Of a stretch of 64,000 bases of DNA, positions 56,381-60,457 are shown piece by piece. The translations under genes and the position numbers were made by a program. The stretch spans positions 62,001 through 126,000 of the forward strand of contig JAEUIH010000002.1 in assembly GCA_016795105.1 (NCBI GenBank), read 5' to 3'. The notes beneath the pieces were generated by a model. The model saw only the letters and a program-made list of their open reading frames with translations, searched no databases and was not told the origin of the DNA. The DNA is from Planctomyces sp. GTDB taxonomy: Bacteria; Planctomycetota; Planctomycetia; Planctomycetales; Planctomycetaceae. Numbering within the stretch: the stretch's first letter is position 1; each line of letters starts with the position of its first letter.

Positions 56381-58750
56381 ATGAATGCGTCTGCCAGGTA
56401 CATCGGAATTGTATCGCTGCTGGTGTTGATCGGCGGAGGCGGATGGTGGCTGTTTTCAGCTCCGGCGGTCATTCTAAGCGAAGACAAACAGGTTCGCATC
56501 TGGGAACTGGAACACGCCACGTTCGAGCTGGAAACAAATCTTGGTGGCGCGATTACTTCAGCAATCAAGAAACGAGATGCCGCTGCCATCCAGAAGCGAC
56601 TTCGGGAAGATTTCAAAGCAGCGGTGGTGAATGAGTCTGCATTGAAGCGACGCGAATCGAGGATTTGCACAGAAGATTCGGCCATTACAGAGGCACCGAC
56701 TGAGATCCCAGCGCAGCAATTCGGGGAGTATCTGACGAGTCTGGTGAATTCGTTTGATAAAATCGAATCTGTTGGACTGCGAATCTTATCGATTGATCGC
56801 GACGATCAGCTTTTGAACGACGGTATGAGGCGGTGGACGTTGAAGGTATTGCTGTCTGCCCGCGGTTCAACGGCTGACAAGTTGCCGGTTGAGTTTGAAT
56901 CCACGGCCTTTGTCACGGCTGTGTTTGCTCGTGATGAAGACATCATGTCGACTCCGGTGATCGAAACATGGAGTTCGCGGTCGCTTGTACGCCGTTCACT
57001 GACTCAACGCTTGTTTCGCGATGGAACTGCCGGCTGGGGATTAACAGGCCTGAAACTTCCGGATAACTGGGCTCTTCCCAAAGAGAAATCAAGCACATTG
57101 TGGACGTCTGCCGCCGTCGAAGACTTCGACCTTGACGGTTTCCTGGATCTTGCCCTTCACTGTGCAAACGGCAAGCGATATCTGCTGCGAAATAACAATG
57201 GCGAAGACTTTGAAGATGTCACCCAGGCCGTTGGAATAGAGCCAACCGACAACATTCAGCCGAACATGGTTGTCCAGTGGTTCGACTACGACAACGATGG
57301 AGACCCCGACCTTCTGCTTGGCCCCATGCTGTACCGAAACGAAGGCGGCAAGAGGTTTACCAACCTCCGAGAGATGACAAAAGATGTGCTGCCTGGAGAC
57401 ATGATGTCGGTGTGTGTGGCCGACTATGACCAGGATGGCTGGCTGGACTTCTATGTCCTTCGGGAAGACGGCCCCGGCCAGATCGATTCCGTTGGATTTC
57501 TGAATGACGAAGAATCAGGTCAGGAGAATATACTCGTTAAGAATCGCGAGGGTCGAGGGTTTCTAAAGACGACTGAAATTGCTGGGGTTGCGAATGGGCT
57601 GAGGCGTTCGTTTGCCGGGCTTTGGTTTCACGCCAATGACGACAATCATCCAGACTTGTATGTAGTGAACGACTTCGCATCAAATTCTCTGTACATCAAT
57701 CGTGGTGATGGAACATTTGAAGACATTGCCGAGAAGACTCTGGTTGCGAATTTCGCAAACAGCATGGGGGCCGCAATTGGCGACATTGACAACGACGGCC
57801 GCAGTGAGATTTACGTAGGCAACATGTTTTCCAAGATGGGGCGAAGGATCATCGAACACGTTTCTGCCGCTGACTACCCTCCAGGAGTCTACGAACAGAT
57901 CCGTGGTGCATGTGCCGGGAATCAATTGTACCGACTGAGTGCTGACGGAACGAAATACGAAGAGTACAGCGAAAAGGCTGGAGTCAACGCTGTTGGCTGG
58001 GCATATGCTCCTGCCATGGTTGACTTTGATTCTGACGGGAGACTGGACCTGTATGCGACCGCCGGCTTCATTAGCCGTAGTCGCACCAGGCCCGATGGCT
58101 GAACATGCCTTTGGAGGGCTGTCGTGTCACAGCCCATGGACCGGTGTTGCACCATTGAAGCCAAGGGCGAAGTCAATGAGGCTGCGGGGGAATTCTGGAC
58201 TGAGAATCCCTTCCAGATGCTCAATAGCGGCGAGAATTTGAGCGCGTACGAACGCAATCGCATGTTTCTGAATTCGGGCGAAGATCAGTTCTTTGAAATT
58301 TCTCATGGGTCAAACACAGACATCGATTCAGATTCGCGAGGCGTGATTGGAGCCGACTTTGATCGCGATGGTGACGAAGATTTGTTGGTCATCAATGCTG
58401 GTGGTGGTCCGTTAAAGCTATTCATCAACGAAATCCCTCAGCAAAACCGCCTGAAGATTCGACTGAAATCTGAATCCAGCGGCAATCGCAGCGGGATCGG
58501 CGCTAAGATCGTAGCCACCATTGGAGGGAAGAGTGTCCACCGGGACTGTTTCGCAAGTGACGGATTTGCGGGACAGAGTCCTCCGGAAGTCCTGATTGGT
58601 ATGGGCGATGCTGCGAAGGTCGACGTGCTGACAATTACATGGCCAAACGGCAAGGTTTCGGAAATTCGAGACCTTGACGCTAATGCACAACTGCTCATCA
58701 ATGACAGCGGTGAAGTGACACGCACGGAGTTCCGGGCGGCAACTCCCTGA
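56381..58750 (+). CDS. FG-GAP/UnbV (CRTAC1-like) protein with in-frame UGA: candidate selenoprotein
   Basis: Two open stretches (56381-58102 and 58103-58750) are in the same frame, separated only by TGA at 58100-58102. Read through, they give 789 aa with U574. An N-terminal membrane anchor (IVSLLVLIGGGGWWLF) and an NTF2-like region (about 30-200) come first. FG-GAP/VCBS repeats follow with Asp-rich calcium motifs: DFDLDGFLDL, DYDNDGDPDLLL, DYDQDGWLDF, DIDNDGRSEI and DFDSDGRLDL before the UGA, and DFDRDGDEDLLV after it. A C-terminal ASPIC/UnbV domain ends with TITWPNGKVSEIRDL. The UGA context is PDG-U-TCLWRAVVSQP, giving U574-x-C576. A SECIS-like hairpin follows. Alternative: a nonsense mutation (pseudogene). 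Confidence 0.75.
58103..58135 (+). promoter_or_regulatory. Candidate bacterial SECIS element
   Basis: Directly after the TGA (58100-58102) the mRNA can form a perfect 7-bp stem, GGGCTGT (58116-58122) with ACAGCCC (58129-58135), closing a 6-nt loop CGTGTC. The loop begins 20 nt after the TGA and has G as its second base. Both agree with the general bacterial SECIS rules as I recall them (loop 16-37 nt from UGA, a G in the first two loop bases). No U bulge like that of E. coli fdhF is evident. Confidence 0.6.
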
Positions 58751-58858: not shown

Positions 58859-60457
58859 ATGTTGTTTCGAATTACGAACCTGCGAGTTCCGGTTGAGAGG
58901 CCGGAAAGTGAACTGACGGAAATTGTTTCGCAGCGTCTGGGGCTGGGAAGTGGCGAAATCCGGTCCCTGAAAATACTGCGAAAGAGCCTCGATGCGCGTC
59001 AGAGAGACAGTCTCGACTTCGTCTACACGCTGATCATTGACGGCTTTGAACGTGGGCCTGTGAACGTTCGCGGCCGTGATGGTCTGCAGGTTGAGGCATA
59101 TTCCCCCCCGATTTTTGAAGAATTGCCTCGTGGCACGGCGCCGATGCCCTATCGACCTGTGATTGTTGGATCAGGCCCCGCAGGAATTCTGGCCGGATAC
59201 TTCCTCGCACTTCAGGGATATCGGCCGATCATCCTTGAACGAGGAAAGGCGGTCCGAGAGCGTGTTCCTGCGATTCGGTCATTCGATTCCGGCGGTGAAC
59301 ACGACCCGGAGAATAACTATCTGTTTGGTGAAGGCGGAGCCGGTTGCTTCAGCGACGGAAAACTGACCTGTCGCATTACGGGACCCGATGTGGACTGGGT
59401 ACTGGAGCGATTCGTTGAGTGTGGTGGACGCCCATCGCTCGTGTATGAGAATCGGCCCCATCTCGGCAGTAATAAGCTTCCGATGATCTGTCGCAATTTT
59501 CGTCGCAAGACAGAAGCTCTCGGCGGCGAATATCGGTTTGACTGCCGAATGGAGGGGCTCCAGTTTTCCAGCGGCCAGTTGACCGGCATTGAAACCTCAT
59601 CCGGATTTATACAGACTCAACATTGTGTCATTGCGATTGGCCATAGTGCTCGCGACACCTATGAGATGCTCGTGCGAAGCGGACTTCCTCTGCAGCCCAA
59701 GGCGTTTCAACTGGGATTAAGAATTGAACAGCCTCAGGATGTGATCAACCGGCACAAGTACGGCCGCCCGGAATATCTGCAGTTACTGGGCGCTGCGGAC
59801 TATTCACTGGTAGCGAAGGGACAGAGAGATCTGTTCACATTCTGCATGTGTGCCGGTGGCATTGTGATCCCCAGTATCTCCGAACCGAATATGTTCTGTT
59901 CGAATGGTATGAGTAATTCGCGACATGATACGCCCTTTGCAAACAGCGGACTGGTCGTAACGTTGGAGCCGGATCAGTTTGGATCGGATCATCCTCTGGC
60001 AGGAGTGCGGCTGCAGCAGAAATATGAAGCAATTGCCTTCCGGATGACGGGAGGCAACTATCTGGCTCCCGTTCAGCGAGCCCGCGACTTTCTGGCAGAT
60101 CGAACACCCGATCCGAAGGAACAATTGCCGTCGTCGTACCCCCGAGGGACTCAGAGTCATAACCTTGCCGCTGTGCTGCCGCCGCCAATTCTTCAGGCAA
60201 TGAAGGCCGGACTGCCGGTCATGGATCGGCAATGGCGCGGCCAATATCTGCCGGATGCCGTGTTGGTGGGGCCGGAGATGCGAGGAAGTTCGCCGGTGCG
60301 AATTGACCGTGACCGTGTCTCGTGGGAGATACCCGGACTCAAGGGCGTCTATCCGGTTGGGGAAGGAGCCGGTTACGCGGGAGGAATTGTCACTGCGGCC
60401 GTTGATGGTCTGCGAGCTGCAAGAAAAATTGTGTCTGTGTATCGCAGCCCCGACTAG
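58859..60457 (+). CDS. FAD-dependent oxidoreductase, COG2509 type
   Basis: 532 aa. A small N-terminal domain (LRVPVERPESELTEIVSQRL) of about 95 residues precedes the Rossmann FAD site VIVGSGPAGILAGYF at about 101-115 and the acidic end ILERGKAVRERV. Other blocks are FGEGGAGCFSDGKLT, CVIAIGHSARDTYEML and, near the C-terminus, GVYPVGEGAGYAGGIVTAAVDG, the second dinucleotide/FAD block. These identify the COG2509 'FAD-dependent dehydrogenase' family, whose reaction is unknown. It is cytoplasmic. Its TAG stop shares the bases CTAG with the TAG of the convergent diguanylate cyclase gene. Confidence 0.92.
   Translation: MLFRITNLRVPVERPESELTEIVSQRLGLGSGEIRSLKILRKSLDARQRDSLDFVYTLIIDGFERGPVNVRGRDGLQVEAYSPPIFEELPRGTAPMPYRPVIVGSGPAGILAGYFLALQGYRPIILERGKAVRERVPAIRSFDSGGEHDPENNYLFGEGGAGCFSDGKLTCRITGPDVDWVLERFVECGGRPSLVYENRPHLGSNKLPMICRNFRRKTEALGGEYRFDCRMEGLQFSSGQLTGIETSSGFIQTQHCVIAIGHSARDTYEMLVRSGLPLQPKAFQLGLRIEQPQDVINRHKYGRPEYLQLLGAADYSLVAKGQRDLFTFCMCAGGIVIPSISEPNMFCSNGMSNSRHDTPFANSGLVVTLEPDQFGSDHPLAGVRLQQKYEAIAFRMTGGNYLAPVQRARDFLADRTPDPKEQLPSSYPRGTQSHNLAAVLPPPILQAMKAGLPVMDRQWRGQYLPDAVLVGPEMRGSSPVRIDRDRVSWEIPGLKGVYPVGEGAGYAGGIVTAAVDGLRAARKIVSVYRSPD

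Follow-up and report, generated by a model that had tools for sequence, protein, structure and literature searches.

FG-GAP proteins of the CRTAC1/ASPIC-UnbV kind, such as murine CRTAC1 (PDB 9etn), combine a propeller with a UnbV_ASPIC domain, and the gene described here encodes both. With selenoproteins of the SelA/SelB/SelC-bSECIS system it shares a UGA in bSECIS geometry, Sec machinery in the genome and a predicted selenocysteine (Sec) beside a Cys. In most selenoprotein families, Cys is found among the homologues that lack Sec. The accessible text of a 2026 review (PMC13188914) limits the bSECIS hairpin to a loop of 3–9 nt, a stem of 4–16 bp, a G in the first two loop positions, a distance of 16–37 nt from the UGA and an MFE of at most −7.5; its Table 1 tabulates 119 prokaryotic selenoprotein families and subfamilies and, as accessible, contains no FG-GAP, UnbV or propeller family. 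We found no description of an FG-GAP/UnbV selenoprotein in the literature searched, including the accessible parts of PMC13188914, PMC4807772, PMC2398784, PMC12013277 and PMC3123361, although Table S9 of PMC4807772, which gives selenoprotein candidates of two planctomycetes, may hold an earlier listing. NCBIfam returned no match for the protein studied here and, among the matches listed for other members, none above cut-off (for L107, the best 25 of 43). An earlier sequence-only reading of this DNA knew of no described selenoprotein in the FG-GAP/UnbV family, which holds for NCBIfam, the accessible review table and the literature searched.

In the window, by which we mean the whole 64,000-nt stretch of DNA analysed, a plus-strand frame running from 56381 to 58750 is interrupted solely by a TGA at 58100–58102, giving an ORF of 573 residues (56381–58102) followed by the rest to 58750. 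The sequence-only reading had proposed two same-frame halves of one protein split by this TGA alone, and the ORFs and domain matches bear it out: the read-through product of 789 residues passes the Pfam cut-offs for FG-GAP_3, FG-GAP and UnbV_ASPIC, the last at residues 705–771 (58493–58693). Its AlphaFold model (pLDDT 87.5, pTM 0.89) has the CRTAC1 fold, with murine CRTAC1 (9etn) as best structural match (VIA-align Z 36.2, 454 residues, rmsd 2.5), and residues 207–777 (56999–58711) align to it as a CRTAC1-like propeller and UnbV part. Ahead of these, the secondary structure of the model suggests an alpha+beta domain at residues 34–210 (56480–57010), possibly NTF2/ketosteroid-isomerase-like given a weak Foldseek row (3hx8, E 4.2e-4). 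A Pfam domain search found no thioredoxin fold with CxxC in the window protein. Its hydrophobic N-terminus, read by eye, suggests export.

Beginning 108 nt past the gene on the same strand, the window carries an ORF (58859–60457) for a 532-aa protein that by eye looks like an FAD/NAD(P)-dependent oxidoreductase. It is not among the recurrent neighbours of homologous genes, and a role for it as reductant is only a guess. We saw no fixed partner among the gene neighbours of homologues, most of the recurrent neighbouring ORFs overlapping the gene itself, and no recurrent thioredoxin gene among the neighbours examined in the window's subfamily. In 11 named loci, among them L126 (819–2823), a second FG-GAP protein is encoded near the Sec gene, at a median gap of 87 nt.

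The UGA site among homologues

Across a set of 99 genomes that includes the window's own, we recovered full-length homologues that contain a single TGA, at the same column, and this whole-length homology supports annotating 56381–58750, terminal UGA included, as one putative Sec-containing FG-GAP/UnbV (CRTAC1-like) gene. The loci of our protein searches in Planctomycetota, Verrucomicrobiota and Acidobacteriota gave 205 spans; once 4 that covered a gene already counted or were identical in DNA had been set aside, 201 distinct sites were left, with U in 147, E in 12, C in 8, N in 7, A in 7, D in 5, S in 4, G in 4, Q in 4 and R in 3; since the collection took strong rows without a stop plus most rows with one, these counts describe a chosen set and are not frequencies. 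One Ser row (L073) has a loop type without the site, so it is no real replacement. UGA thus fills the column in 147 of the 201, with both flanks conserved, as the sequence-only reading had expected of an alignment across a true Sec codon, and this supports reading the UGA at 58100–58102 as Sec at residue 574. Mapped onto a tree built with FastTree from all 205 spans, the site switches between U and non-U at least 10 times.

UGA-bearing loops fall into four types: a, the window's (PDG-U-xC-[LIVF]-W-x-AVVSQP); b (DL-U-SFFWRQVV and near variants); c (DL-U-SLWWRSVV); and d (DL-U-LPF). The window's U-x-C and DL-U-SFFWRQVV are the two dominant subfamilies, hereafter families a and b. One adjoining pair of homologues (L039 and L070, G017:C1191), in a genome with selA, has a divergent DL-U-LPF loop, and L039 alone of the two entered the site count. 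In a 19-row alignment of the window's subfamily, U574 and C576 are both invariant, which together with the structure model sustains the U-x-C motif (U574-T575-C576, 58100–58108) singled out in the sequence-only reading; the Cys pair of its MDRCC motif lies outside the invariant columns.

When genomes of named species were scanned with a DNA pattern, at least 115 stretches matched; 115 of the 116 matches listed encode a UGA-bearing protein of this kind (type a, 34; type b, 81). Going by the phylum labels of the records themselves, they belong to Planctomycetota, Verrucomicrobiota and Acidobacteriota, apart from one labelled Proteobacteria (L111) and one labelled Candidatus Aminicenantes (L160). 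In A2 profile searches of each phylum, in which the best 5 or 6 candidates per genome were scored, matches at E 1e-30 occurred in 119 of 392 genomes from Planctomycetota, 13 of 337 from Verrucomicrobiota and 83 of 347 from Acidobacteriota, UGA forms being part of these. At least 74 of the 392 sampled Planctomycetota genomes had one or more UGA matches, and among the matches listed the UGA rows of the Verrucomicrobiota sample came from the seed genome G471 only (six). That genome holds at least six UGA-bearing paralogues (L371, L372, L320 and three more places). Plasmid records yielded distant CRTAC1-like proteins only.

The suggestion in the sequence-only reading that related proteins might carry Cys near the site proved half right: Cys occupies the Sec column in 8 of 8 genes of one subfamily (DY-C-TxFW..DIY), a distant sister to which it is confined. 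These genes are L041, L067 and L068 (G018), L321 and L361 (G784), L359 and L365 (G1108), and L367 (G1084); a selA match is present in G1108 and G1084 and missing from G018 and G784. In the context x[FY][FYLV]WR[QRH]V, the 26 non-UGA genes hold E (5), N (4), G (4), Q (4), S (3), A (3) and D (3), with Cys in none, a result that stands although the search profile held C at the Sec column and hence favoured Cys. This absence of Cys departs from most selenoprotein families and counts among the points against the explanation proposed below. Homologues with Ser or Ala, which the sequence-only reading would have counted against Sec, do exist, but they have also lost the hairpin, with flanks conserved.

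The hairpin and the decoding machinery

Downstream of the UGA, a perfect 7-bp stem (GGGCUGU, 58116–58122, with ACAGCCC, 58129–58135) closes a 6-nt loop (CGUGUC, 58123–58128) that begins 20 nt past the UGA, and the hairpin (58116–58135; −11.1 kcal/mol) lies within every bSECIS limit given in the accessible text of PMC13188914. The sequence-only reading had the stem, the loop size and the early loop G right and the distance wrong, as it is the loop and not the stem that begins at 20 nt. The terminal UGA of the same gene (58748–58750), which would serve as its stop, is followed by no comparable hairpin, the best reaching −2.7. Taken alone, the window hairpin is weak evidence for a SECIS, because single-sequence folding ranks the 61-nt stretch no higher than shuffled versions of it (z 0.18), an Rfam search of the region matched no family, and perfect-stem hairpins within bSECIS limits follow 48 of the 1457 UGAs on the window's plus strand (~3%).

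The comparative evidence lifts it far above chance. We scored the hairpin by a fixed-register test of six pairs in 146 of the 147 UGA sequences (28 of family a, 118 of family b), leaving out L039, which has no Trp at +4. Because the pattern of the DNA scan required UGA, a Trp codon and GTCGTGTC, that set was kept out of the hairpin statistics; its CxxC counts are unaffected. All six pairs were intact in 26/28 family a and 105/118 family b sequences, and a G stood within the first two loop positions in 28/28 and 118/118. Family a was 98.8% paired with 9 double-change cells (shuffle mean 1.5), U-A giving way to C-G at two positions; family b was 94.2% paired with 58 double-change cells (shuffle mean 14.0), its pairs changing jointly via synonymous and non-synonymous codon changes; in neither family did any of 1000 shuffles score as high. 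The Ser codon after the loop that closes the stem in family a is TCA in 18 of 18 cases, compared to 17 of 343 surrounding Ser codons. Non-UGA homologues kept a mean of 3.13 of 6 pairs (n=53), and within the same peptide context the mean was 3.35 without UGA (n=26) versus 5.89 with UGA (n=76, p=3e-19). Most of the eight genes of the Cys subfamily kept one to three of the six pairs, and one kept five. This pattern of covariation indicates that the hairpin is under selection as RNA. One Ser form (L340, G1150) appears to have lost Sec recently: it retains 5 of 6 stem pairs and the CxxC, and its genome also holds selA and UGA forms.

The window's genome (8.9 Mb, 391 contigs) carries selA on C375 (508 bits, above the family cut-off), selB on C325 (a 695-aa ORF; 282.8 bits with its neighbour, above cut-off) and a single tRNA-Sec match (68 bits, above cut-off) with anticodon TCA (UCA) by ARAGORN. 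Lack of selB or selC was one outcome that the sequence-only reading had said would undo its proposal; both are there, as is selA.

Across Planctomycetota, selA (E 1e-40) was found in 246 of 392 genomes, and in 70 of the 74 with a listed UGA match versus 176 of the 318 others (Fisher p=5e-12, with related genomes counted as independent and with unlisted UGA forms possibly present among the 318). In the 99-genome search, 12 of 13 genomes with a UGA homologue had selA above cut-off, the exception (G002) being 66% complete, and in the named genomes of the DNA scan selA was matched in 30 of 32, above cut-off in 29. For Acidobacteriota, selA was found in 23 of 24 UGA genomes versus 6 of 16 non-Sec genomes named beforehand; our prior prediction that the latter would lack selA was true in 10 and false in 6, and these six mean that losing the Sec form does not require losing the machinery. 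Of the genomes with the UGA form, 4 of the 74 from Planctomycetota, 1 of the 24 from Acidobacteriota and 2 of the 32 named ones gave no selA match, and all of these assemblies may be incomplete. We regard the internal UGA as almost certainly a Sec codon, and the window gene very probably encodes an exported selenium-containing protein.

A possible redox role

Family b proteins run from an FG-GAP propeller through UnbV to an AhpC-TSA/TlpA-like domain and then TPRs. Of the 71 family b UGA genes that extend 430 residues or more beyond the Sec, 69 have the CxxC of that domain and two have CPVS instead; all 6 UGA genes checked from other b types have CxxC too. Among homologues with neither Sec nor Cys it is kept in 2 of 32 (L380, L381), the rest having an altered motif or no such domain, and it is absent from both Cys-subfamily genes checked. 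Independent tree pairs placed CxxC with Sec in 5 of 7 cases, against in 0 and without difference in 2; this tree test alone is not significant (sign test, p=0.06), and Sec and CxxC probably form one functional unit. UGA rows without a fused CxxC make up 18 of 62 judged and belong to types a, c and d, including the window's subfamily, where the motif is U-x-C. Lipobox-like starts, noted by eye in several family b proteins, and the TlpA-like domain suggest export here too.

In the window protein model, helix 574–583 begins at U574. The family b model (pLDDT 85.9) has Sec506 at the start of helix 505–515, with a local pLDDT at the Sec of only about 66–69, and C774 at the start of helix 775–786. 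Sec is thus predicted at a helix start, inside a loop absent from ordinary CRTAC1-like proteins.

We propose that SelB and tRNA-Sec decode the internal UGA as Sec under direction of the hairpin just downstream, and that the product would be a CRTAC1-like FG-GAP propeller of calcium type, exported or anchored in the membrane, whose Sec would act outside the cytoplasm as a redox-active selenol. In proteins of the window's subfamily, Sec would pair with C576 as a selenenylsulfide; in family b, its reduction would fall to the TlpA/AhpC-like CxxC domain fused to the same chain. As a whole, the explanation by Sec decoding, an exported CRTAC1-type propeller and a selenol with a redox role seems to us highly probable. 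Taken singly, the redox role is likely; reduction of an oxidised thiol, sulfoxide or peroxide is the likeliest reaction class, held tentatively and at less than even confidence. We give about even chances to the broader proposal of a large, multi-copy exported selenoenzyme class whose calcium-type propeller bears the selenol, which in the commoner branch would be recharged in cis by a thioredoxin-like domain of the same protein; in this proposal Sec and CxxC are gained and lost jointly, and Cys is no substitute.

The competing account that survives best accepts Sec and denies it a redox role, making it a structural residue or metal ligand replaceable by many residues. It fits the replacement of Sec by A, G, S, N, D, E, Q or R, and never by Cys, in the DL_SFFWR[QRH]V context, as well as the placement of the site in a propeller and not in a thioredoxin fold. 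Because this account sits poorly with a fused CxxC domain that is lost along with Sec, with the invariant U-x-C of the window's subfamily and with the helix-start position of Sec in both models, we consider it unlikely. Very improbable is a conserved regulated readthrough or truncation, in which the UGA would mostly end translation after the propeller and the hairpin would tune readthrough by a near-cognate tRNA with no Sec involved: UGA plus hairpin by themselves fit it equally well, and varied residues in non-UGA homologues are to be expected were the exact residue unimportant, but co-occurrence with selA, the sister subfamily with Cys in all its genes and the joint loss of CxxC and Sec all argue against it. 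A pseudogene, frameshift or assembly error, which one genome by itself could not rule out, is refuted with negligible residual probability by the recurrence of the in-frame UGA with conserved flanks in independent assemblies, some single-contig (G045, G890, G939), and this recurrence in many genomes likewise excludes the sequencing error or indel considered in the sequence-only reading.

Significance and comparison with known systems

These genes make up a large and apparently undescribed family of very probable selenoproteins in three phyla, common in Planctomycetota and present in Acidobacteriota and some Verrucomicrobiota, with at least six UGA copies in one genome (G471). We know of no earlier propeller-borne Sec active site; if the proposed selenoenzyme class is true, this would be the first known, adding one more fold to those using selenium. 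Gene finders that stop at UGA would split these genes. The joint loss of Sec and CxxC offers a direct handle on the role of the selenol, and the replacement of Sec by residues other than Cys makes the question of why Sec is used rather than Cys testable.

By comparison with the described selenoproteins considered here, the decoding system appears standard, and the protein family and its architecture appear to lie outside them. Unlike in most selenoprotein families, Sec loss here goes to non-Cys residues. The DYC-type FG-GAP homologues share a similar loop with Cys aligned to Sec, and differ in having no UGA, few stem pairs and, where checked, no CxxC. Family b carries a domain like those of the TlpA/ResA/AhpC-like thiol-disulfide oxidoreductases, including their CxxC, but as part of a fusion in which it comes after a Sec propeller and before TPRs; the window protein is without this domain. 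What distinguishes the window protein from the CRTAC1/FG-GAP homologues is a helical loop predicted to bear Sec, missing from the other FG-GAP homologues aligned, together with an extra N-terminal domain and an internal UGA with its hairpin.
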